Of a stretch of DNA of 64,000 nt, positions 21,501-63,524 are shown one piece after another. The position numbers and the translations under genes were made by a program. The stretch is from the NCBI GenBank assembly GCA_016124845.1, contig WGMW01000008.1, positions 1 to 64,000 of the forward strand, in the 5' to 3' direction. The notes under the pieces are model-generated. The model had not been told where the DNA came from. It did no database searches and saw nothing but the letters and a program-made list of their open reading frames with translations. Origin of the DNA: Flavobacteriales bacterium. Its GTDB lineage: Bacteria > Bacteroidota > Bacteroidia > UBA10329. Every line of letters starts with the position of its first letter. Within the stretch, counting starts at the first letter, position 1.

Positions 21501-24500
21501 GGAGCGGGCGACTGTGTAATTGTCGGACTGAGGTCGCAGTTATCGGAAGTTGATGCCTGAGACGTGTAATCTGCCAACTGAAACTCACAGTTTGCATCGT
21601 AGAAAACCTGCTGATTTCCGATACACGTGATGCTTGGAGCAATGTTGTCGATCAGAATCACCTCAAACGTACAGGAGGCCTGATTGCCTACACCGTCTTC
21701 CGCGGTTACAGTAACGGTTGTCTGTGCAGACACAACCACACCAATGGCTGGCGACTGTGTCATTGTTGTAGAACCGCAGTTATCGCTCGATTGAGACAAG
21801 AGCGTGTAATCGGGCAATGTGAACTGACAGTTGATGTCTGAACCGACCGTCTGGTTGCCTGGACAGGTAACGGAAGGTGGAGACGAATCGCTTACCGTGA
21901 ACGTACAACTGTTGGTGTTCCCGGCATTGTCCTCTACAGACATGGTAACCAACGTTGTTCCTGTAATGATAGAAGATGCCGCAGGTGATTGCGTAAGTGC
22001 AGGAGACGCATCACAGTTGTCATTGGTCGTAACCAAGGCTGTGTAATCTGGAATTGCCAACTGACAAAGGTTGTTGTATGCCTCGGTCTGATCGGAAGGA
22101 CATGTGATCTCCGGCATCTCGTTATCCACAATTGTCACCGTGAACGAACATGTTACGATCTGACCATTGCCATCATCCGCAGAATAAGTGATCTGGGTAT
22201 CTCCCAACGGGAACGAGCTACCACTTGCAAGACCCGACTGCAGCGTTGCCGTGATGGAAGGATTACAATTGTCTGAAACGGTTGCATCCGAATAGGACAC
22301 AACGGCCTGGCAGGTCGTTGGCTCCACATTCACGCTGGTATCGGATGGACAACTGATGACAGGATCTTCGTTGTCCTCAACAGTTACCGAGAAAGAGCAA
22401 AGACTTACATTTCCCGAAGCGTCCGTAGCTGAATATCTAATGGCGGTCGTTCCCAACGGGAATGTGCTTCCAGACGCAAGTCCCAACTCCAAAGCAGGCG
22501 TTATCGGTGAGGTACAATTATCGGTAACCGTTGGCAATGAGTAGGTCACAACCGCATCACAACTGCCTGAGTCATTATCAACCGTAATATCAGCAGGACA
22601 CGTGATGACCGGAGCTTCATCGTCCGTAACCGTTACCGTGAAACTGCAAGTTGAAGTATTTCCATACTCATCTTCAGCCTGATAGGTGTTGGTAGTTGTA
22701 CCAACTGGGAAGTTTGAACCCGAAGCTATTCCCGCCTCCAATGTTGGCGTAATGGAACCTGTGCAATTATCCGTCACCGAAGGAAGGCTATAAGTGACAT
22801 CTGCACCGCATGTGCCCGCATCCACATTCACCGAGATATTTGAAGGACATACGATGATCGGGTCTTCTGTGTCGTTTACCGTTACGCTGAATGAGCAATC
22901 GGTTGCATTTCCAGCCCCATCGGTAGATGTGTACAGAACTGCGGTTGTTCCAACTTGGAAAATGGAACCACTTGCCGCCCCATTTATCAACTGCGGGATC
23001 ACATTTCCATCGCAGTTATCGATGGCCGTAATGGCCGAATAGGTCACAACCGCCCCACAGATGGAAGCATCGTTCGTTGTGGTAATATCCGATGGACAAC
23101 CGATAACGATCGGAGCCGTGACATCTTCTGGAGTCAGCACGAAGGTGCATGTTCCGGAATTGCCCGAAGCATCCGTGGCAGTGATGGTGACCGTGGTCGT
23201 TCCACCGATCAATGAACCGGCCAATGGCGATTGGCTAACGGTCGGACTTCCATCGCAGTTATCGCTCACCGTTGCCGAGTAACTTCCCACAGTGTAGGTG
23301 CAGGAAGCAGACAGGGAAACCGTAGCATCAGCAGGACAGTTGGTAAGCGTTGGTGCTTCCTGATCCTCCCCTACTACATTGAATGTACAAGTGGAAGAAT
23401 TGCCGCTATCATCGGTGGCAGTAAGAGTTACCTGCGTTGTGCCAGAAACATTCGCCCCAATATTCGGACTTTGCGTTACCGTAACTGTTAGATCACAGTT
23501 GTCGGTTGCTGTTCCCAATGTGGTATAATCGGCCAACGAATAACCGCAGGTTGCATCCGTGGCAACTGTTTGTGTTGCAGGACATGAAATGCTTGGAGGC
23601 GTGTTATCATCCAACTGAACCGTAAACGTACATTGACCGATATTTCCTTCCGAATCGGAAGAAGAAAGCGTTACAACCGTAGTTCCTCCAATGGCAGAAC
23701 CTGCAACTGGAGATTGTGTGATGGCAAGTCCCGAGCCATCGCAGTTATCAACCGATGACGCGCTTGAAGTAAAGTCGGTGAGGAATACCAGACAGTTGAC
23801 ATTCGATGCAATGGTCTGTGGGCTCGAAGGACAGGTCACGGTCGGAGCCGTAACATCCATGGCCGTGATGTCGAATGTACACGAAGCCGTGTTGCTCGAA
23901 TCATCCGTTGCTGTCAACGTAATGGTTGTAGCCACACCTACACCGATCGTGCTTCCGATGGCCGGAGAAGTGCCTTGCGTCACCGTTGGTTCGGCAGCGC
24001 AGTTGTCTGAGGCAACGGCCAACGTGGCGTAATCCTGAATCTGATACTGACAGCTTGCATCGGCATCCACAGTCATATCTCCCGGACACGTAATGGTTGG
24101 AGCCGAATTATCGTTCAGAATGAGCTGGAACGTACAGTTGGAAGTATTTCCATTGTCGTCCTGAGCCGTAAGCGTTACAGTCGTATTGACGGTAATGGAT
24201 GATGAGATTGCGGGAGACTGGGTAACTGTAACCGTATTGTCGCAGTTATCGGTAACGGTTGCACTTCCTGTAAGGTCTGGAACGAGGAAGACACAGTTCG
24301 AACCCACGATGGAAGAACTCACTACCTGATCGCTCGGGCAAGTAATTACCGGAGCTGTATTATCCACAGGGGTCACATTGAACGTACAGGTACTTGTATT
24401 TCCATCATCATCCGCAGCCGTAAGCGTTACCTGTGTAGTACCACTTTGGGTCGTACCTGATGATGGAGATTGCGTCACATCGATGGTCAGATCGCAGTTA

Positions 24501-27500
24501 TCGGAAGTTGTAGCGAAACCACTGGTGTAGTCGCCCAATGCAAACTGGCAGTTGGCATCCGCGTTCACGGTTTGATTCGATGGACAACTGATGGTCGGAG
24601 CAGTTTGATCATCATGAATTACCGTGAATGTACACGAAGCAGAATTCTCAGATACATCTGTTGCGGTTAGCGTCACCACCACATCACTATTGTGTGTTGT
24701 TCCGGCTGCAGGGCTTTGCTCTACAGTAACATTCGGATCACAGTTGTCATCCGTAGTTGCGAGATAAGCGTAGCTCGAAAGCGTGATCAGACAGCTTGCG
24801 TTTGCAACCGCAGTTTGTGTAGCAGGACATACGATGGTCGGATTGGTGTTGTCCTCAACGATGAGGGCAAACGTACAATTGGAAGAATTACCGGCATCAT
24901 CCGTTCCGGTAACGGTAATGGTGGTTGTTCCCTGAACCGTTGTCCCTTGCGTTGGCACCTGTGTAAAGGTCAACGAACCATCGCAGTTATCAGAAGTACC
25001 TGCCTGTGCATTCACCAGACCCGTATAGTTTCCCGCAGAGAAAGTGCAGTTCGAATTTCCCGTTACCACAACATCTGATGGACACTGAAGGGTCGGTGCA
25101 ATCGCATCATGCAGAACCACATTGAATGTACAAACCGATTGATTCGTTCCATCCGAAGCGGTCATCGTAACAGCAACCGTAGAATTTGAGGTCAGATTGT
25201 AAGTTGATCCAGAAGAAGGTGACTGCGTAACTGTAACCGTGCTCAATGATGGGCAGTTGTCCGTGGCTGTCACCAAACTGGTGTAATCTGCCAAGCTGAT
25301 GTTGCAGCTCGCATCCACATTCACTGTCTGTGCCGATGGGCAGACCACAACTGGAGCTGTATTGTCGTTCAGGTTGAGTGTGATCTGACACGTGCCATCA
25401 TTTCCAGCCTCATCAGTTACCGTGAGAACCACAACCGATGAACTTGCACCGATGGAAGTTCCAGCAGATGGATTCTGGCTCACAACCAAGTTTCCGGTTG
25501 AAGAACAGTTGTCCGCAAGGGATGTGGCCAAGCTGGTAAGATCCTCCATTACGTACTGGCAGTTGGCATTGAAATTCTTGCTTACCGATGCCGGGCAAGA
25601 AAGCGTTGGTGCGGTTTGGTCTTCCGCAGAAACAGTAAATGAGCAGCTTGTGGAATTGCCCGCATCATCTGTTGCCGTCATTGTAACGATGGTGTTTCCA
25701 GACACAGGACCTACAATATCCTGCGTCACATCCAAGTTCGAATCGCAGTTATCACTTTCAGAAAGCAGCGAATAGGCTGGAATGACCATACCGCAGCCCG
25801 AAGTTGCCGCCAACGTGGAGTTCGGTGGACATTGGATGGTCGGAGCGATCACATCCTTCGGATGCATATCGAACACACAGGTTGCCACGTTCGTTCCGTC
25901 CGTTACACTCACAGTCACTGTGGAGTTTGAGGAAAGCACCGTTCCCGCAGTTGGCGATTGTGAGAATGTCAATGTCGAGTTGCAATCGTCCGTCACATTC
26001 AGCGTGGAGTAATCGGGCACGAAGTATTGGCAGATGGCATTTACATCCACCGAATCCGGCTCTGTTGGACAGTTGGTGAAAACCGGAACAGAGTTATCGA
26101 ACGGAGTGATGGTCCAAGCACAGGTGCTTGCATTGCCGGAGTTGTCTGTTGCGGTGATCTGCACCGTGGTCTCACCCGTCAGCGTTCCCGTAGGAGGTGT
26201 TTGAACCACCGAGGCCAATCCGCAGTTGTCAGCTATTCCACTCGCTCCGGTAAAGTCATTCAATTGATATACACAGTTCGGGAAGGTGGTGGTAATTGAG
26301 GTTGGACATACAACATCAGGAAACTCGGTATCTTCCACCGTAACGGTGAATACACAGTTTGCCGGTGAATTACCAGCACCATCAACCACCGAATATTCGA
26401 CCGTGGTAGTTCCGAGCGGGAACGTATCACCATTGCCCAAAGTAGAAACTTGAGTAATCGTAGGGTTGGCAGTACAGTTGTCCTGAGCATCGATCGAGAA
26501 ATTGACCACCGCATCGCATACATCTACATCTGTGGACACGGTCATGTTGGAAGGACACGGATCCCATTCAGGATCTTCCGTGTCCGCAATCGTGAAACTG
26601 AAATCGCAAGAAGCGGTGTTTCCAGAACCGTCTGTCACTTGATATCCAATGGTGTAAGAACCATTCTGGAAAGTGTTTCCACTCGTTAGAGGAACATTGT
26701 CCGTTCTACTCAATGGATTTCCAGGAAGTGTACAGTTATCGGAGATTGTCGGGTTTTGCCAGATGACCTGAGCTCCGCAGGCACCGGTTGTGTAGTTGAT
26801 AGTTGGTGTGGGACAGGCAATGGTCGGATCGGTAACATCAGAGACCGAAACCGTGAAACTACAGTCAGCTGTGTTTCCGTTCACATCTGTTGCCCGGTAT
26901 GTAACGGTTGAAACCCCAAGTGGGAAGTTGGCACCTTGATTCGGTCCAGCTGTCTGCGTGACACTCAATATGGAACAATTGTCGGTTGCTGTTGGCGTGC
27001 TCCAGGTGGCCGATCCGACACACGAAGAACTTGCATTGACAGACATGTTGGAAGGACAAGTGATGTGGGGATTGGTCTCGTCTGTAACAGTAACCTGAAA
27101 CGAGCAATTGGCCTGATTACCCGAAGGATCCTGTGCGGTAAAGCTCACATTGGTTGTTCCAACCGAAAAGGTTCCACCACTCACCGAATGCCCGGTTGAA
27201 CTGGAAATGGTGGCAGAACAATTATCTGATGCGGTGATCGAATAGGAAATATTTGCACCACAACTGTTGCTCGGAGCAACAGCACTCAACGTTCCCGAAG
27301 GACATGAAATGGATGGATTCTGGTTATCTACAACCGTTACTGTGAAGGAACAGTCATAATTGGAACTGCCCTGAGTTGCTCGGAACGTAACTGTGGTTAC
27401 ACCGACCGGAAAGGCCGAACCGGAACCTGGACCCGAAAGAAGGGACGGACCGGTAAAGCTGCAGTTATCGCTCGCGGTTGCGGACGAATAGGTAACGGTG

Positions 27501-28429
27501 GCCGTACATTGGTTTGAAGGAGCATTGACAGAAATATTCGAAGGACAGGTTATTTGTAGCGGCTGATTATCAGTAACAGTAACGGTAAATGAATGATCGG
27601 CCGTATTTCCGTAAGTGTCCGTTGCCCGATGTGTTACGGTGGTGGTTCCAACGGGGAATTGCGAACCGCTTGCGGGTCCGGCAATGCGCTGCACAGTTAC
27701 ACCACAGAGGTCGCTTGCAACAGGAGTATCGTAACTGACAACTGCATAGCATTGACCAGAAGCTGTATTCGCTGTCATATTTCCAGGAACACTGGTCCAA
27801 GTAGGTGCGGTATTGTCTGTGGCGGTTGTGATCTTCAAATCGTATCCCGAAACAAGCAGCGGATCGCCTGATGCTTGATCACCCGCATCGAGACTCCAGT
27901 TTCCGTAAACAGAAGTTCCCACGTAATCATTCAGGTTTCCACCGTCAGGTTTCCATGTTCCCGTTGCCGGGGTGCTGTCGTCAGGAATAACGGAACCGTT
28001 CTGCCTGAACTTGGTGGCAACAGCATAACCAATAGATTGACAGCCACCCCAAGTACTGGCTCCCCCATTGGTGGAACCATAGGCACTGACAGCCAAAACT
28101 TCATTGTTGGAAGGCCCATTCAACCTGTAGTTGACCTCATTGAAATAAGAGCACCCTGTACCGGTAGGATTCGCACAGGAACCACCCGTTTTTGACCAAT
28201 GTATCACCACCTCCACATCAGAAATGGCACAACCCGAGGCAAACTGAGAATGCGACAGAGAAACCCCTCCTAAAGTTTGTGTCTGGGCATCGATACAGAC
28301 CGAACTGACCGGTGTGTACGAGTAAGTATATGTTTGAGATGATGCATTCGAGTGTACCTGAAGCAGGATCAATAGTAAGGCTGAAGCCCTCACAAGTAGT
28401 CGTTTTAACATAGTTTTCTGTTTCTGCAA
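18524..28429 (-). CDS. giant HYR-repeat adhesin-like protein with P-domain-like cap and T9SS sorting domain
   Basis: A 3301-residue secreted protein. Layout: signal peptide (hydrophobic residues about 9-25); an N-terminal cap to about residue 205 that resembles the proprotein-convertase P-domain jelly roll (GNWSLDAGDQASGD and SGYDLKI near its end); 34 HYR units; a SprB-like repeat beginning near residue 2993; Ig-like segments; and a type A T9SS sorting domain with YPNPSTGQF and a terminal RLVLIK. Its last 15 HYR units and everything after them are collinear with the neighbouring 4481-residue protein, while the N-terminal caps are unrelated. Expected surface adhesin. It lies 74 bases downstream of the TMTC-like gene, on the same strand. 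Confidence 0.93.
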   Translation of the reverse strand: MQKQKTMLKRLLVRASALLLILLQVHSNASSQTYTYSYTPVSSVCIDAQTQTLGGVSLSHSQFASGCAISDVEVVIHWSKTGGSCANPTGTGCSYFNEVNYRLNGPSNNEVLAVSAYGSTNGGASTWGGCQSIGYAVATKFRQNGSVIPDDSTPATGTWKPDGGNLNDYVGTSVYGNWSLDAGDQASGDPLLVSGYDLKITTATDNTAPTWTSVPGNMTANTASGQCYAVVSYDTPVASDLCGVTVQRIAGPASGSQFPVGTTTVTHRATDTYGNTADHSFTVTVTDNQPLQITCPSNISVNAPSNQCTATVTYSSATASDNCSFTGPSLLSGPGSGSAFPVGVTTVTFRATQGSSNYDCSFTVTVVDNQNPSISCPSGTLSAVAPSNSCGANISYSITASDNCSATISSSTGHSVSGGTFSVGTTNVSFTAQDPSGNQANCSFQVTVTDETNPHITCPSNMSVNASSSCVGSATWSTPTATDNCSILSVTQTAGPNQGANFPLGVSTVTYRATDVNGNTADCSFTVSVSDVTDPTIACPTPTINYTTGACGAQVIWQNPTISDNCTLPGNPLSRTDNVPLTSGNTFQNGSYTIGYQVTDGSGNTASCDFSFTIADTEDPEWDPCPSNMTVSTDVDVCDAVVNFSIDAQDNCTANPTITQVSTLGNGDTFPLGTTTVEYSVVDGAGNSPANCVFTVTVEDTEFPDVVCPTSITTTFPNCVYQLNDFTGASGIADNCGLASVVQTPPTGTLTGETTVQITATDNSGNASTCAWTITPFDNSVPVFTNCPTEPDSVDVNAICQYFVPDYSTLNVTDDCNSTLTFSQSPTAGTVLSSNSTVTVSVTDGTNVATCVFDMHPKDVIAPTIQCPPNSTLAATSGCGMVIPAYSLLSESDNCDSNLDVTQDIVGPVSGNTIVTMTATDDAGNSTSCSFTVSAEDQTAPTLSCPASVSKNFNANCQYVMEDLTSLATSLADNCSSTGNLVVSQNPSAGTSIGASSSVVVLTVTDEAGNDGTCQITLNLNDNTAPVVVCPSAQTVNVDASCNISLADYTSLVTATDNCPSLSTVTVTQSPSSGSTYNLTSNSTVAVTMTASDGTNQSVCTFNVVLHDAIAPTLQCPSDVVVTGNSNCTFSAGNYTGLVNAQAGTSDNCDGSLTFTQVPTQGTTVQGTTTITVTGTDDAGNSSNCTFALIVEDNTNPTIVCPATQTAVANASCLITLSSYAYLATTDDNCDPNVTVEQSPAAGTTHNSDVVVTLTATDVSENSASCTFTVIHDDQTAPTISCPSNQTVNADANCQFALGDYTSGFATTSDNCDLTIDVTQSPSSGTTQSGTTQVTLTAADDDGNTSTCTFNVTPVDNTAPVITCPSDQVVSSSIVGSNCVFLVPDLTGSATVTDNCDNTVTVTQSPAISSSITVNTTVTLTAQDDNGNTSNCTFQLILNDNSAPTITCPGDMTVDADASCQYQIQDYATLAVASDNCAAEPTVTQGTSPAIGSTIGVGVATTITLTATDDSSNTASCTFDITAMDVTAPTVTCPSSPQTIASNVNCLVFLTDFTSSASSVDNCDGSGLAITQSPVAGSAIGGTTVVTLSSSDSEGNIGQCTFTVQLDDNTPPSISCPATQTVATDATCGYSLADYTTLGTATDNCDLTVTVTQSPNIGANVSGTTQVTLTATDDSGNSSTCTFNVVGEDQEAPTLTNCPADATVSLSASCTYTVGSYSATVSDNCDGSPTVSQSPLAGSLIGGTTTVTITATDASGNSGTCTFVLTPEDVTAPIVIGCPSDITTTNDASICGAVVTYSAITAIDNCDGNVIPQLINGAASGSIFQVGTTAVLYTSTDGAGNATDCSFSVTVNDTEDPIIVCPSNISVNVDAGTCGADVTYSLPSVTDNCTGSITPTLEAGIASGSNFPVGTTTNTYQAEDEYGNTSTCSFTVTVTDDEAPVITCPADITVDNDSGSCDAVVTYSLPTVTDNCTSPITPALELGLASGSTFPLGTTAIRYSATDASGNVSLCSFSVTVEDNEDPVISCPSDTSVNVEPTTCQAVVSYSDATVSDNCNPSITATLQSGLASGSSFPLGDTQITYSADDGNGQIVTCSFTVTIVDNEMPEITCPSDQTEAYNNLCQLAIPDYTALVTTNDNCDASPALTQSPAASSIITGTTLVTMSVEDNAGNTNSCTFTVSDSSPPSVTCPGNQTVGSDINCQFTLPDYTLLSQSSDNCGSTTMTQSPAIGVVVSAQTTVTVTAEDGVGNQASCTFEVILIDNIAPSITCIGNQQVFYDANCEFQLADYTSQASTSDNCDLSPTITQSPAPGSMLTGTSVVTFTSTDDEGNSASCTFSVLPVDNIPPSITCPSTQMAQLDANCEYMLSDYSSSVSSTDNCNGAPTVSQSPAVGSVFTTSTIVTMTAVDGAGNSASCLFLVEPEDAIAPVITCPSDAEVDLDADCEYALVDFTNQATVTDNCSSNFNVSQSPIAGTVVTSNTLVTLTAQDVSGNASNCTFTITPVDNLGPTMVCSGDITVSFDQNCAYEIGDYAGFASVTDNCSGTIAIDQNPSTGILVYASTNVVLTATDASGNSSTCSFNVNPTDDEDPVIVCPSDQDVAFGNSCSFVMADYTSMTTATDNCSGNVLVSQDYAVGSFVGDTVLVTMTANDGNGNQATCSFWVNPSDITDPTVTCPTDQFVEFDSNCQFEMPNYKSMVMALDNCPNTFIAQAPEEGTSIGSSTSVAITVTDGAGNTAQCSFMVIPSDVNAPTVTCPSDMVVDVDANCQFELGDYTSSASAQDNCSSNLTYSQFPPATVVIVSTTTVTITAQDDAGNEGTCSFSIQPEDNMDPVITSCPPDQTVSLNANCQFIVPNYSSLVSGTDNCDATLSFQQLPAAGSQINVAGTSQVGVALIDDNGNYSACQFNLTVEDATAPVVACPSDQVLNLDGNCEFTVPDYTSLATASDACGTVSVTQSPAAGSTITSQLNATIIATDGGGNTASCTFLVDVVEMSVSVTGTDVTCSNGNDGTAIAVPTGGTGPYTQDWGGFDPNALVAGQYSVTVTDANGCAANGSVTIGSGSAFQITIDPSGDIEVCPGESVVLSAGAGYAQYNWSTGATVSSITVTNPASYWVTVVNANGCVSNTDTVNVAYFASETPTISSGTDGVLYCSNDTATNYQWSFNGTPISGATNSWYCPTQSGNYVVELTDANGCVVSSFTSEYTYSEDSPCATGIEEYGLSMEVYPNPSTGQFTLSYTLSNDSKLEMAVLDQMGRQVIVGEQLMGSTGRKIIDLSGEADGVYILRMLINDENVTQRRLVLIK
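19465..27825 (-). repeat. array of 34 HYR repeat units (coding)
   Basis: Counted from CP-type openings, boundaries approximate. Units 20-34 match units 34-48 of the neighbouring giant protein one for one, including the four consecutive long-type units and the unusual unit joined by a short linker (SDSSPP here, DATPP there). Units 1-19 have no comparable register with the neighbour. Confidence 0.87.
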
Positions 28430-28446
28430 GCGAATTTATCCTTTTT

Positions 28447-28466
28447 GGAACAGATAGGTCTGTTCC
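28447..28466. promoter_or_regulatory. dyad in the leader of the 3301-residue gene
   Basis: ggaacag and ctgttcc form a 7-bp inverted repeat with a six-base spacer, 18 bases before the start codon at 28429 on the minus strand. It could be an operator, a leader hairpin or a weak transcript end for the upstream operon; there is no T-run after it on the minus strand. The 28430-28503 gap holds no other clear signal. Confidence 0.35.
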
Positions 28467-28503
28467 TTTCCTAAATATGAAATTGGGGTAACAAACACGT
28501 GGG

Positions 28504-30363
28504 TCAGGAGCCTATCTGTCTCCTCAGCGCAACAAGACCTGCATTTCCCGGATAGATGGCCAGACCCCGGTCTATGGCACTCAGTGCCTTACCCGTTTCT
28601 CCAACCTTCATGTAGAGCTTGGCCATCAGCTCGAAATAGGAAGCAGAGCTGGTGCCAAGCTTTTCTCCTGTTTCCAATCTTTCAATTGCATCATCATACC
28701 ATCCGGAATTGAAAAGACATATGGACAACAGGTAATAGAAGTCGGAATTTGTACTACCGTTCTTAATAGCGTGTTGAAAATAAGGAATGGCCTTGGCATA
28801 TTCCTGAAAGCTCATGTAATACTTGCCCATCTGCACGTAAGGCATGGAAAGATCAGGATACTCTTCGATGGCCGCCTCAAATACAGCCTTGCCCTTGTTC
28901 GGATAGCCGAACTCCATGTAGGCAGACCCCAGATCGATATACACGTTGAAAAGGCGATCGGTGAGCTGCAACGTACGTTCATAATAGTGGAGTACCTTCT
29001 TTGCAGCCTCTGGGCGTTTCGGCTCGGGCAATGAATAATACTCGCGATGGAGCAGAAGCGCATAATTGTAGTTGGCGCGCACGCAATTCTCAAGTTTCGG
29101 CAGGTCGGTCTCTAAGAGCGTTCGGTTGTCTTTCCATGCCTTGTTGCGATAAACGCCATATCCGAACAATGGAATCATAACTACCAGAATGACCACCCCA
29201 CTCCACTTCTTGGTAACCTCGAATGTGAAAAGACTGAGTAGAGCCACACATAATCCGAGCGATGGTGCAAATAGGAATCTTTCGGCAAAGATATCGGGAG
29301 CTATCTGCACCAGATGAAGGTAAATTGAACCAGTGAGCAGAAAAATGATCAGGCCAATGCCGTAAGGTTTACGCTTTAGAACTCCACGGATTGAAACAAC
29401 AACTGCGACAAGAAGTACGATGGCTGCCAACCAGACCATCGGATCACCGAAAGAACGGACCGCGAACTGACTGTAGCTATAATCGTGTACCAGAGGATAT
29501 GGAACAACAAAGCGGTACACGAAATAGCCGGCCAGGTAGACGGCCGTTGCCAATCGTTCTGAGGTTGAAGCTGCAAAGAGCGGGTTGCCAACATAGCCAT
29601 CTTCCAAAAACAGTCCTTTTTCCTGCAGTTCAAAATCATTGGATTCGAAAAACAGATCCGAGTAGACCAATGCCCGCAGAACAAGAGCAAAAATCAGGAA
29701 GATAAATAGTGGAAGGGTCTTCTTCAGGTTTCCAAGATGATCCTGCGGATCCAGTAGCACCCACGGCAGTATGAATGCAACCCCAATGAGCGTGACGGCA
29801 CTTTCTTTGGACAGGAAGCCCAGTACCATGAACAGCAAACTGACCAGATAATGCCACCATTTACCACCGGAAATGGCTTTCGCATAACTCATTAGACCAA
29901 GAAGTCCGAAACCAAGGGCCAGTATTTCATCGCGGCTTTTAATGTTTGCGACCACCTCTGAATGAATCGGGTGCACCACAAACAGTAGAGCTACAAGGAA
30001 ATTACCTGCCACCATCTCCGGAAACAGTCTGTGCAAAAACACAAGAACGATAACCGATAAAAGTCCGTAAAGGAAAATATTGACCCTATGCGCAGCGTGC
30101 GGATCCATCCCGAAAAACTGAACATCTGTGGCAAATGAGAGCAGAGCAATGGGGCGGTAACCGTAGTGATTCTCTGTTTCGTTAGACTTTTTGTTCTTGA
30201 AAAGTTCGGGTATATCCTTCAGTCCTTGTTTGACACGGCTGTTCTCGGTAATGACAATGGCATCATCCCAAGCGTAATCATGATTGGCGGTGTTGGCATA
30301 TTGCAGCACTGCAATCAGGAAAACAAGAGCGGCCTGCACCCTGATGTTCTTGAGAAAAGCCAC
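28504..30363 (-). CDS. TMTC-like GT-C glycosyltransferase with TPR repeats
   Basis: A 619-residue polytopic membrane protein. The first luminal/periplasmic loop has the acidic AWDD motif (D33-D34) and a second conserved loop reads HPIHSEVVANIKSRDEIL (131-148), both typical of TMTC/PMT-like GT-C enzymes that use lipid-linked sugars. About ten membrane segments run to residue 420, then four or more TPR-like helical repeats (about 420-610) complete the TMTC plan. In animals TMTC proteins O-mannosylate cadherin domains on the extracytoplasmic side; bacterial homologs are mostly uncharacterised. It is the last gene of the eight-gene operon and is immediately upstream of two Ser/Thr-rich beta-sandwich adhesin genes. 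Donor and acceptor are inferred, not shown. Confidence 0.85.
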   Translation of the reverse strand: MAFLKNIRVQAALVFLIAVLQYANTANHDYAWDDAIVITENSRVKQGLKDIPELFKNKKSNETENHYGYRPIALLSFATDVQFFGMDPHAAHRVNIFLYGLLSVIVLVFLHRLFPEMVAGNFLVALLFVVHPIHSEVVANIKSRDEILALGFGLLGLMSYAKAISGGKWWHYLVSLLFMVLGFLSKESAVTLIGVAFILPWVLLDPQDHLGNLKKTLPLFIFLIFALVLRALVYSDLFFESNDFELQEKGLFLEDGYVGNPLFAASTSERLATAVYLAGYFVYRFVVPYPLVHDYSYSQFAVRSFGDPMVWLAAIVLLVAVVVSIRGVLKRKPYGIGLIIFLLTGSIYLHLVQIAPDIFAERFLFAPSLGLCVALLSLFTFEVTKKWSGVVILVVMIPLFGYGVYRNKAWKDNRTLLETDLPKLENCVRANYNYALLLHREYYSLPEPKRPEAAKKVLHYYERTLQLTDRLFNVYIDLGSAYMEFGYPNKGKAVFEAAIEEYPDLSMPYVQMGKYYMSFQEYAKAIPYFQHAIKNGSTNSDFYYLLSICLFNSGWYDDAIERLETGEKLGTSSASYFELMAKLYMKVGETGKALSAIDRGLAIYPGNAGLVALRRQIGS

Positions 30364-31497
30364 CTATCTGTTGTTCATTGATGAATTTGAAACCGTCTCT
30401 TCAAACTCAAATAGGCCAGGGTAAAGTTCATCGATCTGGTCAACCACCTCTTTGGTATCAATTACTCGCACCGAACGACCGGCCTGCGCCAAGGCCACGG
30501 CCAACCGTAACTGTTGCGATTCGGTGATCTGGGTCGTACCTTTCTTATAAGCGACTCCATTGAAAACGATCAGATCCGACTCTGCATAGTCTTTTAAATA
30601 TTGATTGAGTTGAAACTGGAAGTGTTCATCATTGACCTTATCCGTAGCATTACTGAGGTGCAATGGCATACCAAGCATTCCACCGAACTTTCCGAGTGCC
30701 CGGTTATCTCTTGGAAAACAAGGCCCACCGAAACCGAAACCATATCTCAAGTATTTGCTGCCAATACGAGAATCAGAACCAACTGCAGCCAAGATCTTGT
30801 CAGGATCGGCACCAGCGACCATTGCCATATCTCCGATGGAGTTGGCGAAGGATATTTTAGTGGTCAAAAAGCAATTGGTGGCCAATTTGGCTATTTCAGC
30901 ACTCAAAGGATCCATACGACAGTATACGGGTTCGTTCTTTACAATGGCCGCATAGATGGATTGCAGCCTAAGACCTACTTCCTCTGTTGCCTCCCCGATC
31001 AACACCTGATCTGGATAAAGTTGATCGTGGATAATGGCACCTTGGGCGATGAACTCAGGGTTGTACGACACGGTATAGCCATGAGGTTGGAGTCGTTTAG
31101 CCAGGGCATTGCAATACCCTGGCATGGTCGTACATCCAACGTAAACATGTCTTTGCACCCCATCATTTGCAAGTCCCAGCAACTTATCGGCAACGCGGTC
31201 AACTTGCGAATGGTCATAACCACCGTCTGCCATGGATGGCGTGGCAACCATTATGAAGATATCTCGAATGTCTTTCTCAACAATACATTCAATCTTATCC
31301 GTCAGGTGCATCGCCTTGGCACTTGCCAAAAGTTCGTTCACCTCCGGCTCTGCGCTGTCCAAGGTTCTGTCGGTCAACGATCGTAAGTACTCGCTATTCG
31401 CTTCTACACCCCAGACCTCAAAACCTGAGCGTTCCAAATTGAGGGCAAAACAGATTCCCAACTTACCTACTCCAACAACTGCTATTCTCTTGGCCAT
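30364..31497 (-). CDS. UDP-glucose/GDP-mannose dehydrogenase family protein
   Basis: A 377-residue cytoplasmic enzyme that should oxidise a nucleotide sugar to the uronic acid using NAD. The Rossmann motif GVGKLG is at residues 9-14, the NPEF segment near 156, and the catalytic Cys in the FGGPCFPRD motif is C260. It is shorter than typical UDP-glucose dehydrogenases (about 430) and has a truncated C-terminal nucleotide-sugar domain. In the operon it is butted against the TMTC-like gene (stop and start adjacent) and follows a glycosyltransferase-like gene by two bases. The actual substrate (UDP-Glc, UDP-GlcNAc, GDP-Man) cannot be told from sequence. Confidence 0.85.
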   Translation of the reverse strand: MAKRIAVVGVGKLGICFALNLERSGFEVWGVEANSEYLRSLTDRTLDSAEPEVNELLASAKAMHLTDKIECIVEKDIRDIFIMVATPSMADGGYDHSQVDRVADKLLGLANDGVQRHVYVGCTTMPGYCNALAKRLQPHGYTVSYNPEFIAQGAIIHDQLYPDQVLIGEATEEVGLRLQSIYAAIVKNEPVYCRMDPLSAEIAKLATNCFLTTKISFANSIGDMAMVAGADPDKILAAVGSDSRIGSKYLRYGFGFGGPCFPRDNRALGKFGGMLGMPLHLSNATDKVNDEHFQFQLNQYLKDYAESDLIVFNGVAYKKGTTQITESQQLRLAVALAQAGRSVRVIDTKEVVDQIDELYPGLFEFEETVSNSSMNNR

Positions 31498-31499: not shown

Positions 31500-32540
31500 T
31501 TAAACTCTTCCTTCAAAAACGTATTCGTCAAAATCTTCATTCGCCCAACCCCAATCAGGCTTGTTCAATCCCCAATTCTTACCATCGGCCACCATTTTCA
31601 TCCCTGCCCGATGGACAATGGAATAGTCTAAACTTGGTTTGTCGGATATGAACCGGATGGTCTGAATGATGTCATCAGATTCCCAACCATTGTCATGATC
31701 GATATGATACACACATGCCCTGTATGGGAAAATGACCTGCTGCATACCCAATGCACAGGCAGACCACAGCCCCATACTGTCAACATGTATTGAATACATG
31801 TCGAGTTCGGCATACCCGTCTATTCTCAACCAATCCTCTCTGCTCATGAGCGTGTAATCGCCACAGGCCATGAAATCTATGGTAAAGTGAGCAAACTGAC
31901 CTGGATGCGTTTTTTTCCAGACCCACATCAACATTTTATTCAGCAGCGTGGCAACCCACGCGTACTTGTAAATGATGTCAGGCCCTTTGATGGCCTCGTG
32001 TCCAGGCGAATTGCCCAGTCTTCTGATAATGTGCTGTGAAGCATAGTCCAGCTGCTCATCATGCGAAGTGAACTTTAGCACGTCCTTGGGAATGTCGCAT
32101 CTGTTGGCCCTATAGAACTTTCCCTTTTCCAGATTCCTTGCCGCCAACATTTCAAAGTTCAGATCCGAAAAAAGGATGTCGATGTTGGTGCAGAGTACAA
32201 ACTCGCCCTTTGCCCGTCTGATACCAACGTTCTTAGCGATCATCTGATAAAGCGGAAGCGAATCGGCAAACCGATACCGATTATGCAGTTGGGCCGGTAC
32301 CACAATGATTCTCAGGTCTACCCGGGTATCTGCATCTGGCTTTGGCAATACTTCGTTCAAGAGAGGCTTATCATGTGGGGGGTTCCACTCCACAATGATC
32401 AGCTCGATCGGCAGATCAAATTTTTTGGACTGATGATAAACGCTTTGAATGAATGCGCATGTGCGTTTCAGCAGGTCACCACCATGATTGTCGTTACGCG
32501 TGGTGGCAACTATCGAAAGATAATAGGACCTGTTCTGCAC
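31500..32540 (-). CDS. glycosyltransferase-like protein, paralog 1 of 3
   Basis: A 346-residue soluble protein with a GT-A/GT2-like beginning: SIVATTRNDNHGGD, an LIIVEWNPP strand, and the acidic site NVGIRRAKGEFVLCTNIDIL, where NxD stands in the place of the usual DxD. It aligns along its length with the products of the next two genes upstream (same NDN/D-YGGD, EWNPP/NWNP, NVGIRRA(R/K)G and a final NWGLN/DWGL box). I infer a nucleotide-sugar-dependent transferase; no catalytic base is assignable. It is 61 bases downstream of paralog 2. Confidence 0.7.
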   Translation of the reverse strand: MQNRSYYLSIVATTRNDNHGGDLLKRTCAFIQSVYHQSKKFDLPIELIIVEWNPPHDKPLLNEVLPKPDADTRVDLRIIVVPAQLHNRYRFADSLPLYQMIAKNVGIRRAKGEFVLCTNIDILFSDLNFEMLAARNLEKGKFYRANRCDIPKDVLKFTSHDEQLDYASQHIIRRLGNSPGHEAIKGPDIIYKYAWVATLLNKMLMWVWKKTHPGQFAHFTIDFMACGDYTLMSREDWLRIDGYAELDMYSIHVDSMGLWSACALGMQQVIFPYRACVYHIDHDNGWESDDIIQTIRFISDKPSLDYSIVHRAGMKMVADGKNWGLNKPDWGWANEDFDEYVFEGRV

Positions 32541-32601: not shown

Positions 32602-33636
32602 TCAAGTGAGAGTTTCGGGCAGGTCATGAGCTGCCAACCCCCAACTGTCGGTATTGTAGATGACAGGTCTCCCCGAACGGACCATTGCTTCAACATCATT
32701 CTTAAACTGCTGATAAACAAATCGTTGGTCGGAATCATCTTTTCCTATGGCATCGAATCTCCTAACGTGGTGTTTATGATAAATGGGTGGTACGAACACT
32801 TTTTCGCGCAGGCCTGAAAAAGCCGCCTGAATGACCATGAGTGAATCCACGTGAAGCGAAATGAGCGAATTCTCCTTATATCCCTTCAGCTGCGCCCAGT
32901 GGTCTCGGTGCATGAGCATCAGGTCGCCACTTGCGTTGCAATGCAACCTATACTCTATGTTGTGATAGTAAACTGGAATCGAGAAATAGTTGAGTACCGC
33001 TTCAAAATAAACCGTGTTGCCACGCCATTTGTTCTCGAACCATTTTCTTGCCCATTGCTTGAGGTACATGCTCATACTGAAGTTTTCGAAATCCTCATGG
33101 CTTCCTTTGAACCAGACGGTGCGCACATGATTCCGAAGCTGTTCATAAACGGTAGATGTGGTGGTCAGTTCCCCTTCAAAGGTGTGATCCGACCTGTTGG
33201 CTCGATAATAGGTGCCCTTTTTTAGTTTCTTCAATTTCGGGAACAATGCTTCGCTCATGACTATGTCCGGGTTCATGGCCATGATGAACCGACCTCTGGC
33301 TCTTCGTATGCCAACGTTCTTGGCAACGTATTCCAGAACAGGCACATCCTTCACCTTGCTTTCAGCTACCGTTTCCTTATGAATGAGACCTGGTACCGTA
33401 ACGATGCGTACGTCAACCCATTGGTTTGAACGGGGCCATTCAATGAAATCTTCAATCGGAGACCCATCTACAGGATTGTAATTCACAAATATCAGTTCCG
33501 ACCTTATTCGGGCTTCAGTGAGGTGATGGAAAGTCCAACGTACGAAGGTCTGTAACCGTAAGCGGAAATCGCCTCCATAATCGTCATTTCTACCTACTGC
33601 CACAATGCTCAGATCCATATCTTCGGAGTTTACCAT
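32602..33636 (-). CDS. glycosyltransferase-like protein, paralog 2 of 3
   Basis: A 344-residue paralog of the flanking two proteins. It shares the opening LSIVAVGRNDDYGGDF, the VNYNPVDG strand, the NVGIRRARGRFIMAMNPDIV acidic segment (NPD in place of DxD) and the terminal NTDSWGLAAHDLPE box. GT-A-like fold inferred. The start overlaps the stop of paralog 3 by seven bases. The acidic motif differs in each copy (NID, NPD, NAD), so the three may use different donors or acceptors. Pairwise divergence is high, so the triplication is old. Confidence 0.7.
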   Translation of the reverse strand: MVNSEDMDLSIVAVGRNDDYGGDFRLRLQTFVRWTFHHLTEARIRSELIFVNYNPVDGSPIEDFIEWPRSNQWVDVRIVTVPGLIHKETVAESKVKDVPVLEYVAKNVGIRRARGRFIMAMNPDIVMSEALFPKLKKLKKGTYYRANRSDHTFEGELTTTSTVYEQLRNHVRTVWFKGSHEDFENFSMSMYLKQWARKWFENKWRGNTVYFEAVLNYFSIPVYYHNIEYRLHCNASGDLMLMHRDHWAQLKGYKENSLISLHVDSLMVIQAAFSGLREKVFVPPIYHKHHVRRFDAIGKDDSDQRFVYQQFKNDVEAMVRSGRPVIYNTDSWGLAAHDLPETLT

Positions 33637-34670
33637 TCAATTAACGGAAGATCTTCGTGTGCAAGCCCCCAATCGTCAGTATTCAAAAAGCGGTGGGTAT
33701 CTTTTCCCTCCTTCACTTCATTCGATATGTCTTCGAACAGCCGATAGGTCTCTTCAAACATGCTGTCTTTTTTGATGTCATCCCAGGCGTACCTGCGCTC
33801 ATGTTCCTGATGGAATACCGGGGCGTGCAGAACGACTTCGCTATACCGCTGATTGGCAAGTACGGTGAAGATCGCGTCCGTATGTGTACTGATGCGGGTA
33901 TACTCAGGGTACCCCTTCATCCGATCCCAAAGTCCGTTCGGCATCAGCATAAAATCTCCCGAATTGAGACAATGGGCAAGATAGGCACCATTATCGCGTA
34001 CCACGTTCAGTTTCAGTCTGTCGGCCAATCTGCTATGCTGGAACTTAAGCAGTTCCCATCTTAGGCGGAACGAATTCAATATTCTGAGAAGATGAACCTG
34101 AAAAGGTTTGGCAGGTCCGCGAAGACTGTACATGAACCCCTTCAGGGATATTGCAAATCCGTGCTGCCAGAAGTCAGAAATACGGTGGGTTTCGGTTTTG
34201 CGGAAATCAAGCCTATCGGCCCGGTAATAGGTATCGGGAGCGAGCTGTGAGTGGGCCAAAAATTCAAATATCCTCGGATGAATGAGAATATCGGCATTGG
34301 TGCAGAGAATGTTCTTACCCTTTGCTCTTCTGATGCCAGCATTCTTGGCAATGAATTCAAACATGGGTACCGTATTGCGCACCCTCGGGTCCACATACTT
34401 ATTGTGGATTCCGGCCGGAACTTCCACCATCCTGTAAGTCACATACTCCCTGTTCAACGGCCAACGTACCGTTTCGGTCAGGTCGGGCCGCTCCGTCAGC
34501 GGATTCCAGTTCACCAACACGAATTCGGTGGCGATACGATAGTGTTCCAACCAGCGGGTGTTCCAATCTATACTGGTCTGCAATCGTTCAGCAAAGTCGC
34601 CACCATAGTTATCGTTTCGGACGGCAACAACAACTGAAAGCTCCGGACGCCCGTCTTCCATTTTGTTCAA
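33630..34670 (-). CDS. glycosyltransferase-like protein, paralog 3 of 3
   Basis: A 346-residue member of the same GT-A-like trio: opening LSVVVAVRNDNYGGDF, VLVNWNPLTERPDL strand, NAGIRRAKGKNILCTNADIL acidic segment (NAD) and C-terminal NTDDWGLAHEDLP box. The shared final box, ending with an acidic Leu-Pro, is diagnostic of this small family here. Its start overlaps the end of the SGNH gene by four bases (translational coupling), and its end overlaps paralog 2. Probably cytoplasmic. Substrate unknown. Confidence 0.7.
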   Translation of the reverse strand: MNKMEDGRPELSVVVAVRNDNYGGDFAERLQTSIDWNTRWLEHYRIATEFVLVNWNPLTERPDLTETVRWPLNREYVTYRMVEVPAGIHNKYVDPRVRNTVPMFEFIAKNAGIRRAKGKNILCTNADILIHPRIFEFLAHSQLAPDTYYRADRLDFRKTETHRISDFWQHGFAISLKGFMYSLRGPAKPFQVHLLRILNSFRLRWELLKFQHSRLADRLKLNVVRDNGAYLAHCLNSGDFMLMPNGLWDRMKGYPEYTRISTHTDAIFTVLANQRYSEVVLHAPVFHQEHERRYAWDDIKKDSMFEETYRLFEDISNEVKEGKDTHRFLNTDDWGLAHEDLPLIEW

Positions 34671-36199
34671 CGGTCTGATGTGTTTAAGGGTAAGTCCTGC
34701 AAGGGTCCAATATTGATCGCTATCACGGAATCGATCAGCCCCTGCAGATGATCGGCATACAAAAGATGGCCTGCATCATTGAAGTGGCCATCGCTTTCCT
34801 TATACACTTCTGCAGAAACTTGGGGTTGGTGGTAGGTTATGCCCTTAAACAGTCCATCCACGCTCTCTGCTCCGAAGACCTTACCTTTTTCCAATTTCGG
34901 AATGACGGAAATTATAAGAGGTACATGAACACTATCGCAAAACGAAATAATGGGAGCCAAAAGCTCATTCGTAATATCCTTTTCGGGAAAGTCTTTTCCG
35001 ACAAAGAAACGGTGGTCAATCAAACCTTCATTTACCATGAACTCCCACAGATAGGTGGTTATCACCGTTTTCCGCATAAGCCTATTTATTCGTGTGGTGG
35101 CAGGGATCTGCATGTTGCGCATCACGTTCTCGTAAGCGGATTCCAACGAACTGAACTCTACACCGTTATGCATAGCGTAGATGTTTCCTGCATTGGACCA
35201 ATACATCAATTGATGTTGCACACCAACCGGTCTCTTAAAATGCGCCACGTCATTCCCAATAAAGAAGTTCAGAACCACAAGGCTCGGTCTCAACTCTTCA
35301 TAATAGGCCTTCAGTACCGATCCGTACTGCTGCACATCGGCACCACTTATGCCGGTATTTAGCACATTGTACCCACGTCCCAGCAATATGTTAGAAAAAC
35401 TGCTGAACTTGCGGGATGCCGAATGTCCCCAAGTGAAGGAATCTCCCAACAGCAATATTCTTGGCCCTTTCAAAGTTGCCGTATCGAAGGGTATGCTGTA
35501 AAAACCGTCCTGATTGATGGGATGTTGAATGTATTGCCCGATCAATTGAGCGCGCATGTCATCATCGAGAATCACGTTTTGCCTCCAATTCTCTCTATAT
35601 GTTTCGTACCAAGGATAGGTTGACCAGTGTTCGGTAAGCAACGCCAAGAGGTCTCCGGCATATCTCTTTTCCAACGAATCGGTACCCCAAAACGCACTGA
35701 AGTGCTTCTTCTGGGCCCCCAGCTCATTCACCATTAACGTATCCACCTTCAATATTCCGTTCTGATCTGTGATAAACCCTTTGAGAGCATAGACCGAATC
35801 TACCGGGTGGAACCACTGGTCATAGGTGAACTGGCCGGGTCTGTAACCGATGAGTCTCAGGCCGAACTCGGCCAATAGGAGTGTGAAGCACAAGGAAAAA
35901 AACGACAGTATCAAGTTCTGCTTCAATCGCCTGCCGATAAATGTCACTATGAGAAGTATCGATGAAATGACAAGGAATCCGAATCTCAGCCCCCGCATGA
36001 AGATATAGACCAACCAATGCCAATGCGGAAAACCTCGTTCGAGTTCGTGAGAACCGGCACCCGTTAACCAACAAAGGTCTGTTTGGAAGACCCTGATCTC
36101 TGAACACCAGAGCCGCAATGATACCGTTACTCCAGCAACAAGCATTAACTGAAGAACCGCAATTACCTGTACACGTGTCAGTTTTCCGGTCTTTGTCAT
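34667..36199 (-). CDS. membrane-anchored SGNH/GDSL hydrolase-like protein
   Basis: A 510-residue protein with three probable membrane segments in the first 115 residues, then an SGNH hydrolase domain. The nucleophile motif is GDSFTWG with Ser254, the Gly block is TGISG, the Asn block is FFIGND, and the catalytic pair is probably D475 and H478 in FNDAGH. SGNH proteins with membrane anchors often add or remove O-acetyl or other acyl groups on exported glycans; that role is an inference here. The domain probably faces the periplasm. It is the third gene of the operon and is coupled to the glycosyltransferase-like trio. A 30-base gap separates it from the HTTM gene. Confidence 0.82.
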   Translation of the reverse strand: MTKTGKLTRVQVIAVLQLMLVAGVTVSLRLWCSEIRVFQTDLCWLTGAGSHELERGFPHWHWLVYIFMRGLRFGFLVISSILLIVTFIGRRLKQNLILSFFSLCFTLLLAEFGLRLIGYRPGQFTYDQWFHPVDSVYALKGFITDQNGILKVDTLMVNELGAQKKHFSAFWGTDSLEKRYAGDLLALLTEHWSTYPWYETYRENWRQNVILDDDMRAQLIGQYIQHPINQDGFYSIPFDTATLKGPRILLLGDSFTWGHSASRKFSSFSNILLGRGYNVLNTGISGADVQQYGSVLKAYYEELRPSLVVLNFFIGNDVAHFKRPVGVQHQLMYWSNAGNIYAMHNGVEFSSLESAYENVMRNMQIPATTRINRLMRKTVITTYLWEFMVNEGLIDHRFFVGKDFPEKDITNELLAPIISFCDSVHVPLIISVIPKLEKGKVFGAESVDGLFKGITYHQPQVSAEVYKESDGHFNDAGHLLYADHLQGLIDSVIAINIGPLQDLPLNTSDR

Positions 36200-36229: not shown

Positions 36230-38107
36230 TCAGTTACACTCCTGTTCGCTGGACCAAAATATCAATATTTCAGGAACGTCCTCACCCGACCTGTCCGGAT
36301 GCAACGGTTCAGAGCGAATCTTGAATCGGTAGGCGCGCGCGCGATTTACTTCCGGAACGCTGGAGCAAAGCAACTTCCAATAGGTGACCACCTCGCTCTC
36401 CACCGAACCGCCCTTGTTGTGAGCGTTGATGATCGCATCCTCATAGGGCGTGTCGCTTTCTCTCCGATACCCAGCTCGACTGAGCGCATCGTCCACATTT
36501 ACCCACACCCCTTCTTCATTCTTCATTTCAATGATCACGAACTTCAGCTCATCACCGTAAATGCGCGTGTAACCCGGAAAAGATGTGAACGGATAGCTGT
36601 AAATCGCAGCGAAACCGAAGATGGAATTGAAAAAGAACAAAATGGAAGTGACCATGATCATCAGTTTACTTTGTAATCCGAGCTTGAAACAAACAGTATG
36701 GCCTGAAGCGGCCCTCCATTTCGGGAACACTCGCCCCAGGTTGAAATAAAAGACATACATGCCAAGTACCGATGGGAACCAGATCCGCAAGGTCAGTCCG
36801 GTCAACGTATGGAAGATGACCCCTCCTGAGATCGCCACCCATCGGGTCTTATCGGTCAGTAGCAGGAATATGTAGGCCATCTCAAAAAGTATGACCGAGA
36901 GACCGCCAATTTTGACCATCCCCGGAAATCGCTCTACCGGAAGCATGGAACGCCAGCCATAGTGCTGATGCCACTCTACATAGATCTGATTGAGCATGGA
37001 GTTGCTCAACGCCCAATCAAATCCGGCAATCCAAAGTTTCTGAAACCCGGGAAAGAAATACACCACTCCCAAGGTGATCCAGATAAGACGTATCGGCAGC
37101 CCATAGGCCACCGAGACGGGTATCTCGATCTGCTTTCCGAACCATTTTCTCATCAGGGCATCTATTGACAGTACATCGGAGCATGGCGAGAACGTCAGTA
37201 TCCACGGAATCCATATCCAAAGATGTTCATGGAACAGTTTGCCGTAGAAGTTGGGCGTGGCCATGACCACGAAGATCAAAATGGCGTTCAACAGCAACAT
37301 CGGACGGGTAAGGAATCCCAAACAAATGAACAGGTTGACCACGGATGTGGTCTTACAGATCATTACATACTGCTCCCGTGTGAGATTGACAACTTTGATG
37401 TACCAATCCATATACGGCAAGCCCTGCGGCTTGATATCGAAATACGCGCTATGTTGATCGGGGTAAAACCAACAGATTACGGCCATGAACCCGAAGTACA
37501 GGAAGCGTAACATGGCCAGGTTGTAGGGCGTGTCCGCCACAAGGAAGAATCTTTTTAACAAACCCACGAAACTCTTCCATTTTACTGTTACGGAAAGGGC
37601 GATCAGGACAATTAGCGATAGGGCAAATGCCCGTGAAACCACAAGTTGATCCTGAAATGTAGTGTCTCCCGAAGAAATGACACCGGTCCTTACAGCAAAG
37701 TAGAGCAGCAGGAAAGCCGAAAGACTCAGAAGCACGGCCGCGGTCAAATACCTGAGGTTATGGTCCAAATTATCAGAAAGAGTCGGAAACAGTTTGGTCG
37801 GTTCGGTGGGTGAGAACAAGGACCTGATCTTGCATCTCCTGAAGAGCAGGTAAACCATTGCAAGCACCGCCAAGCAGCCGGCAATGAGTAGAGAGCGGAC
37901 TCCCCAAAATGCCAGGTCATGGTAGTGAGGGAACCATTGTTGATATTGCTGTGGCGTACCTTGAAGCAACCAGCCAAGGTTCCAGTGCGAACCCATGAAT
38001 GCATTGTTCCAAACCTCATGGCACAACCACATGACCGAACCAAGAGAAAGCAGAGCCACAATTACCGACCATTTACAAAGGTCGCGTGCCACCAGACGGT
38101 ACATCAT
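36230..38107 (-). CDS. HTTM domain membrane protein
   Basis: A 625-residue polytopic protein. An N-terminal part with four or so membrane helices (to about residue 185) precedes an HTTM domain, the membrane domain shared with vitamin K-dependent gamma-carboxylase: the segment beginning NLAMLRFLYFGFMAVICW, the loop with LPYMDW, then WIPWILTFSPCSDVLSIDAL and a long set of helices to about 510, with a soluble C-terminal tail. Bacterial HTTM proteins are poorly understood, and carboxylase activity cannot be assumed. Its start overlaps the end of the radical SAM gene by four bases (ATGA), so the two are co-translated. A second large membrane protein of comparable architecture (LMF-like) lies at 48888-50486. 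Confidence 0.8.
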   Translation of the reverse strand: MMYRLVARDLCKWSVIVALLSLGSVMWLCHEVWNNAFMGSHWNLGWLLQGTPQQYQQWFPHYHDLAFWGVRSLLIAGCLAVLAMVYLLFRRCKIRSLFSPTEPTKLFPTLSDNLDHNLRYLTAAVLLSLSAFLLLYFAVRTGVISSGDTTFQDQLVVSRAFALSLIVLIALSVTVKWKSFVGLLKRFFLVADTPYNLAMLRFLYFGFMAVICWFYPDQHSAYFDIKPQGLPYMDWYIKVVNLTREQYVMICKTTSVVNLFICLGFLTRPMLLLNAILIFVVMATPNFYGKLFHEHLWIWIPWILTFSPCSDVLSIDALMRKWFGKQIEIPVSVAYGLPIRLIWITLGVVYFFPGFQKLWIAGFDWALSNSMLNQIYVEWHQHYGWRSMLPVERFPGMVKIGGLSVILFEMAYIFLLLTDKTRWVAISGGVIFHTLTGLTLRIWFPSVLGMYVFYFNLGRVFPKWRAASGHTVCFKLGLQSKLMIMVTSILFFFNSIFGFAAIYSYPFTSFPGYTRIYGDELKFVIIEMKNEEGVWVNVDDALSRAGYRRESDTPYEDAIINAHNKGGSVESEVVTYWKLLCSSVPEVNRARAYRFKIRSEPLHPDRSGEDVPEILIFWSSEQECN

Positions 38108-45208: not shown

Positions 45209-45235
45209 TTTTCGACTATTGATTCTCAACTGATA

Positions 45236-48041: not shown

Positions 48042-48052
48042 TAGAATTTACG

Positions 48053-52294: not shown

Positions 52295-52668
52295 AAATCC
52301 AAGCTATTTTCCTTGCACTGCTTCTACTTGCCCTTGTAGGTTGCAGTGATAGAGCTGCTAAAGAGAGGAATACAGTGTGCATTTTATATGAAATAAAGAA
52401 CGGAGAAGACTTACGAATTGATGGTACAAACCAACCGGGAACTCCTCAACCTTTGTGTTTTGTGGTTGGGCATCATGAGGTTATAAATGGAATTGACAAA
52501 GCCGTTCTTGGCATGAAAACCGGAGAATCGAAAACCGTACGAGTTCTACCCGAAGATGCCTATGGAAAGCGCGGTCTTGATTATGTTGACCATTTCGGAA
52601 AAACCGTATTTCTTGCTAAACCGAACGATACGCTTTCGGTATGGATAAAGATTGAGAATATCAGATGA
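52291..52668 (+). CDS. FKBP-type peptidyl-prolyl isomerase lipoprotein
   Basis: A 125-residue lipoprotein (lipobox LVGC, C18) with a short FKBP fold: FVVGHHEVINGIDKAVLGM, ESKTVRVLPEDAYGKRG and a final strand LSVWIKIENI. It should speed prolyl cis-trans isomerisation of envelope proteins. The domain is close to minimal in size (about 95 residues). The start overlaps the FGE-like stop (ATGA), so the two lipoproteins are made together. Its end overlaps the convergent PhyH gene by eight bases. Confidence 0.8.
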   Translation: MKIQAIFLALLLLALVGCSDRAAKERNTVCILYEIKNGEDLRIDGTNQPGTPQPLCFVVGHHEVINGIDKAVLGMKTGESKTVRVLPEDAYGKRGLDYVDHFGKTVFLAKPNDTLSVWIKIENIR

Positions 52669-53512: not shown

Positions 53513-53513
53513 G

Positions 53514-54631: not shown

Positions 54632-54635
54632 CAAT

Positions 54636-63522: not shown

Positions 63523-63524
63523 AA

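Follow-up and report, generated by a model that had tools for sequence, protein, structure and literature searches.

In animals, TMTC1-4 (CAZy family GT105) are O-mannosyltransferases of cadherin domains and TMEM260-like proteins are O-mannosyltransferases of IPT domains. In bacteria, T9SS cargo with a Por_Secre_tail-type tail is often attached to A-LPS. The cadherin domains on which TMTC1-4 act are Ig-like, and the TPRs of these enzymes have been proposed to recruit the substrate (PMC11292533); prokaryotic homologs of TMTC had been noted previously (PMC7801869). For the general O-glycan of Bacteroidota, a common core of hexose (mannose), deoxyhexose and hexuronic acid has been reported, together with an initiating transferase described as undiscovered, for which a 2025 review proposed seeking homologs of eukaryotic O-mannosylation (PMC12871550). 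A literature search covering few subscription journals returned no description of a conserved TMTC-HYR giant locus, of its recurrence or of its occurrence together with a TMEM260-like enzyme that is nearly universal; no paper on HYR with T9SS and glycosylation was found in this search, and none on DUF2723.

The window (the whole stretch analyzed, 64,000 nucleotides of a Flavobacteriales contig) encodes at 28504-30363, on the minus strand, a TMTC-like GT-C glycosyltransferase with C-terminal TPRs, hereafter T1, identified from its ORF, its motifs and its predicted fold. The ORF (619 amino acids, GTG start codon) corresponds to a real gene, since full-length relatives with 50-60% identity exist in six congeners. 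Compared with the TMTC motifs listed in PMC7801869, T1 retains most signature residues of the family: DD33-34, NHYGYRP65-71, HPIH131-134, SRDE143-146, SKE185-187 and AERF360-363. Over 64 relatives, D33, D34, R70, P71, H131, P132, H134, E136, K142 and R362 were invariant, and D145, E146, K186 and E187 nearly so. As in animal TMTC1-4, a polytopic GT-C module carries the DD motif in the first extracytoplasmic loop (D33 D34, in 64 of 64 sequences), the SHKSYRP-like EL1 motif that contacts the donor phosphate (H..YRP; NHYGYRP 65-71 in T1, in which H66 is present but not family-invariant, unlike R70 and P71), an acidic EL2, the EL3 lysine (K186 of SKE) and the arginine of the EL5 AERV motif (R362 of AERF), followed by a C-terminal TPR array predicted to lie on the trans side. 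The differences are that the animal enzymes reside in the ER and T1 in the bacterial inner membrane, that the EL2 SRDE motif (143-146) has, by eye, Glu at the Asp position, that the EL4 DW of T1 resembles DY by eye, and that T1 is located within a glycan gene cluster.

T1 also differs from its animal counterparts with regard to PF08409 (TMTC_DUF1736), the diagnostic EL4 domain: it was matched in 45 of the 64 relatives (E up to 10, best 3.1e-9), whereas T1 itself was below the cut-off (12.6 bits vs. 27, E 0.14), its sub-threshold match (residues 260-319) falling where expected. Other Pfam comparisons gave a sub-threshold PMT_2 match (residues 90-229), several TPRs (residues about 450-610, in a search with the single protein) and no match to PF11028, the TMEM260-like family, at E up to 10. 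A sequence search of the PDB with T1 matched TPRs only, and the profile of its N-terminal part detected no PDB chain. The AF2 model of T1 (built from 64 sequences) reached a pLDDT of 92.9 and a pTM of 0.91; a fold search with the whole chain again matched TPRs only, and the membrane module (residues 1-430) was therefore folded alone (pLDDT 89.2). The best 18 PDB matches to this predicted module were all GT-C glycosyltransferases or GT-C-related (STT3, ALG9, AglB, Pmt4, AftD, DPY19, PglB, PimE and ArnT among them), with modest E-values (3e-3 to 5e-2) and a probability near 1; Pmt4 was the best by TM-score normalized to the query. With the ArnT, PglB and Pmt enzymes T1 shares the predicted fold and is expected to share the use of a polyprenyl-linked donor; it differs from them in its C-terminal TPR domain and in an N-terminal profile that matches no PDB chain by sequence. 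The motifs, the Pfam matches in relatives and the predicted GT-C fold make membership of T1 in the TMTC family well supported at the clade level, the PF08409 cut-off being the one formal criterion that T1 itself does not reach. The TMTC-like gene with TPRs proposed in the initial annotation was thus confirmed.

That annotation had also placed T1 74 bases upstream, on the same strand, of two Ser/Thr-rich giant proteins made of Ig-like units, and both statements held. Giant 1 (18524-28429, minus strand, 3301 amino acids, signal-peptide-like start) is the probable client of T1, and giant 2 (4928-18373, minus strand, 4481 amino acids) follows it. Both are HYR (PF02494) arrays, with about 34 and 48 HYR-like repeats respectively (counted with a local HMM), and end in a C-terminal T9SS sorting tail (Por_Secre_tail, PF18962). 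Ser plus Thr make up 27.2% of giant 1 and 28.4% of giant 2, Lys and Arg are nearly absent from both, and the two are paralogous, with 49% identity across some 3100 residues. They may be adhesins, and they may be glycosylated. As in the animal system, the possible clients of T1 would be Ig-like beta-sandwiches, with HYR instead of cadherin as the putative client domain.

The gap between T1 and giant 1 (28430-28503, minus strand) measures 74 bases with the giant 1 ORF called from a TTG, or about 92 if translation starts at the ATG at 28411, six codons further in, which the signal-peptide-like N-terminus suggests to be the true start. Within this gap lies a perfect inverted repeat of 8 bp (GGAACAGA-CCTA-TCTGTTCC) that no T-run follows, and no clear counterpart was found in the corresponding gaps of relatives. 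Giant 2 starts 150 bases past the end of giant 1, behind a strong intrinsic-terminator-like hairpin on the minus strand (18504-18471), and is for these reasons probably a separate transcript. Promoter-like matches in a scan of the region were not clearly above those in shuffled sequences. Genes for a non-specific endonuclease and a putative cyclase lie beside giant 2 (3288-4831).

Upstream of T1, a glycan cluster that T1 closes as its last gene reaches back to about 44145, with nearly all of its genes on the minus strand. Abutting T1 with no gap is its most conserved partner, a gene for an NDP-sugar (UDP-Glc type) dehydrogenase (30364-31497, minus strand; TIGR03026, PF00984/PF03721, synteny). 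Three putative GT-A glycosyltransferases follow on the minus strand: one at 31500-32540 (no Pfam match; a conserved partner in the genus, in the congener G006 and in the Fluviicola-type loci described below), its paralog at 32602-33636 (32% identity; weak PF00535 match, E 0.18) and a third paralog at 33630-34670; the sequences and the weak PF00535 match suggest this assignment, with no confident Pfam match for any of the three. The remaining genes encode a GDSL/SGNH-like hydrolase or acyltransferase with N-terminal membrane helices (34667-36199, minus strand; PF13472 below the cut-off, conserved in the genus), a polytopic membrane protein with no family match (36230-38107, minus strand; homologs in the G007 and G006 clusters), a twitch-domain radical SAM protein (38104-39393; strong NF033640 match), an NAD-dependent sugar epimerase/dehydratase (40862-41845, minus strand; PF01370, 61-80% identity in related loci) and a GT4-type glycosyltransferase (41842-44145, minus strand; PF00534, synteny). 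A large glycan-modification island (44231-63998) extends the cluster to the right end of the window, and includes genes for a Wzt-like ABC ATPase, UbiA, a WelO5-halogenase-like 2OG oxygenase, several PhyH/2OG oxygenases, an LMF1-like protein, B12-radical SAM proteins, a C-methyltransferase, a nucleotidyltransferase, a GDP-mannose-dehydratase-like protein and a GT2.

Across the loci compared, the most constant neighbours of T1 are the sugar-nucleotide dehydrogenase and the glycosyltransferase cluster, not HYR, and this makes polysaccharide assembly a serious rival explanation: T1 may act as a periplasmic glycosyltransferase in the making of LPS or a surface polysaccharide, with a lipid-linked glycan as acceptor in the manner of ArnT-type GT-C enzymes, and the giant may owe its place beside T1 to being anchored to that glycan or to binding it, without being modified by T1. 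This alternative is a substantial possibility, somewhat less probable than protein glycosylation by T1. The position of T1 directly beside the dehydrogenase and at the end of an island with glycosyltransferases, a Wzt-like ABC ATPase, epimerases and a nucleotidyltransferase argues for it, and the predicted GT-C fold is compatible with it, as the matches cover both protein- and lipid-acceptor enzymes and cannot separate protein from lipid or polysaccharide acceptors. On the other hand, TMTC, the closest family in sequence, acts on proteins where tested, and the C-terminal TPRs of T1 suit a protein partner.

The genus seems to be represented by MAGs alone. Comparison with the congeners showed the T1-HYR giant pair to be contiguous in three of them: in G004, T1 is followed after 89 bases by a 3783-aa HYR giant (L069); in G003, by the start of the giant at the contig end (L012); and in G001, by another TMTC (T2, with about 30% identity to T1) and then the giant (L072/L116). 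Two further genomes fit the same order on split contigs: in G005, the giant and T2 lie at one contig end (L084/L121) and T1 with the dehydrogenase at another (L073), and in G007, 40 bases separate the end of T1 from the edge of its contig, and the giant starts 263 bases from another such edge (L068, L104). The G002 contig stops 16 bases after T1 (L071), leaving adjacency unreadable. No dehydrogenase, glycosyltransferase, T1 or giant was found in G008. T2 (L116:6577-8520; L121:152-2098) is a divergent TMTC of a different clade, present beside the giant in two congeners, G001 and G005.

G006 bears on the nature of the acceptor in both directions. It retains the series GT4-epimerase-GT-GT-dehydrogenase and lacks both T1 and the HYR giant, a joint absence that represents a single event; that T1 and the giant are missing together while the sugar genes are still there speaks against a role of T1 in polysaccharide assembly. 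The slot of T1 is however occupied in G006 by a different TMTC-like protein of 900 amino acids (36% identity across about 180 residues), with an ABC1-type kinase gene next in line. A sugar cluster that ends in a TMTC-like gene persists without HYR here and in HF-Dia22 (L117, see below), which favours the polysaccharide alternative. This separate TMTC-like type, about 900-940 amino acids long, was found in the genus at L216:9967-12669, L217:6642-9410, L218:5991-8738 and L219:5307-8129; its neighbours in G005 are a T9SS-tailed cytochrome-like protein on one side and a PKD-like giant on the other.

Conserved gene order is not in itself proof of shared function, because in the window genome (G000), G004 and G007 it extends to the endonuclease and cyclase genes past the giant. 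This wider synteny favours the possibility that T1 and its neighbours have unrelated functions and have only been inherited together, in a genus whose genomes rearrange slowly. In G002 the endonuclease and cyclase genes are both present, at a contig end; no endonuclease homolog was found in G001 or G005. Past the giant of G005, none of the genes read has a match in the window, and the junction between the TMTC gene and the giant is nevertheless kept; this survival of the pair across a break in downstream synteny, and its recurrence in Fluviicola NORP8 with a T1 only 37% identical, make mere co-inheritance very improbable.

Outside the genus, three T1-type loci were found in Flavobacteriales/Fluviicola MAGs (37-38% identity to T1); their T1s form one fully supported tree group with those of the genus and with the paralog on contig C10 of the window genome. 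In these Fluviicola-type loci T1 lies directly behind a 639-aa GT2-type gene (truncated in L118). Two HYR proteins with T9SS tails are encoded directly downstream of T1 in Fluviicola NORP8 (L119), whereas no HYR was found beside T1 in HF-Dia22 (L117) or in the Fluviicola MAG of L118, genomes that encode HYR_4C proteins elsewhere; the L118 arrangement, a T1 behind a GT-type gene without HYR, also agrees with the polysaccharide alternative. The link between T1 and HYR giants is a conserved feature of the genus, with one recurrence in a more divergent lineage. HYR was found within up to 10 kb on each side in 0 of 75 other Bacteroidota TMTC-like loci (mostly 24-33% identity), and a general TMTC-HYR association beyond this clade was rejected. 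Within the window genome, none of the TMTC-like paralogs (contigs C10, C15 and C61) adjoins HYR genes, and five other contigs encode HYR proteins, none of them beside a TMTC-like gene. The association of TMTC-like genes with HYR giants, whose co-occurrence across genomes the initial annotation proposed to test, holds as adjacency genus-wide and in NORP8, and not for the 75 other loci, for L117 and L118 or for the paralogs of the same genome.

Clustering of the label “HYR-adjacent” on the tree was not significant (values as low arose in 94 of 500 shuffles), partly because adjacency could not be scored on split contigs. An association of TMTC-like genes with any large T9SS protein was also considered: 12 of 90 TMTC ORFs had a same-strand neighbour of at least 800 amino acids, and those outside the HYR loci included a few T9SS giants (L130, L154, L161, L166), a frequency that is probably near chance. 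Contigs C61 and C15 of the window genome carry two more TMTC-like gene pairs (L075:7301-12837 and L076:8535-12436), in tandem on C15 and one gene apart on C61, with no HYR in the regions read.

The linkage in one genus and in one of three Fluviicola-type loci, and the presence of other HYR proteins elsewhere in the window genome, would also be expected if T1 glycosylated a large number of periplasmic or T9SS proteins without favouring the HYR giants, the adjacency being historical. The distribution of the candidate enzymes and the composition of the giants make this broad role improbable. PF11028 proteins (TMEM260-like, about 1000 amino acids, mostly single copy) were encoded in 55 of the 59 Bacteroidia genomes sampled, the window genome having one gene (G000:C13:63085-63624, plus strand), while TMTC-likes (E 1e-20 or better) occurred in 39 of the 59, often in several copies. 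The two are separate GT-C families, each with animal and Bacteroidota members. From the near-universal distribution of one and the patchy distribution of the other, we infer that the TMEM260-like protein is the better candidate for the initiator of the general Bacteroidota O-glycan, which leaves the TMTC-likes for special clients.

The general Bacteroidota system, which uses a D(S/T)X sequon, acts by periplasmic O-glycosylation of secreted and T9SS proteins, as proposed here for T1. It differs from the T1 locus in that the latter is not of the metG-wzx LFG type, that T1-type genes are far from universal and that the T1-linked giants are depleted in the sequon. Giants 1 and 2 contain 5 and 4 D(S/T)(A/I/L/V/M/T) sites respectively, below the background of 29 and 42 expected from shuffles. 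The T1-linked giants together have 12 sites in 20,157 HYR residues (0.6 per 1000), and 21 HYR proteins without a T1 neighbour have 121 in 24,269 (5.0 per 1000), a depletion to be taken as suggestive because the controls vary between 0 and 14 and few lineages are represented among the linked giants. The T1-linked giants may avoid general O-glycosylation, which would fit a dedicated enzyme, or they may simply be unglycosylated; their poverty in the general sequon speaks, with the same reserve, against a T1 serving many clients.

In the most likely reading, T1 is a TMTC-type glycosyltransferase that belongs to a glycan locus, and its client is probably the adjacent HYR giant. That it is specifically an inner-membrane TMTC-family enzyme that glycosylates secreted beta-sandwich proteins, chiefly the adjoining giant, has a little less than an even chance of being right. 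T1 would then be a GT-C enzyme with its active site facing the periplasm, taking a single sugar (mannose by analogy) from undecaprenyl phosphate and moving it onto Ser/Thr of HYR units or other secreted beta-sandwich proteins. Its TPR domain would recruit the client, mainly the neighbouring giant, after Sec export and before T9SS passage of the outer membrane, the recruitment by TPRs being modelled on the proposal for TMTC and cadherins (PMC11292533), and the upstream sugar-nucleotide dehydrogenase, epimerase, GT-A, GT4 and GDSL enzymes would supply or extend the glycan. The TMTC-family sequence of T1, its GT-C fold prediction, the T9SS/HYR nature of the giants and their conserved linkage come directly from the data; the sugar, the lipid donor, the protein acceptor, the client and the order of events are inferred. 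The glycosylation interpretation of the initial annotation is thus partly supported, and a dedicated bacterial adhesin-glycosylation system at this locus is plausible. A client-specific bacterial counterpart of cadherin O-mannosylation, with a TMTC-type enzyme encoded together with an Ig-like giant beside a general TMEM260-like O-mannosyltransferase, is a more doubtful proposition.

The T1-HYR locus provides a concrete candidate enzyme-client pair for Bacteroidota O-glycosylation, and the genome survey yields two candidates with different distributions, the near-universal TMEM260-like enzyme and the patchy TMTC-likes. If TMTC-likes modify bacterial beta-sandwich surface proteins, this would bear on the origin of cadherin O-mannosylation, as well as on the protection or adhesiveness of very long surface proteins. 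If the client-specific reading is true, the division of labour seen in animals, TMEM260 for IPT and TMTC for cadherin domains, would be paralleled in Bacteroidota.
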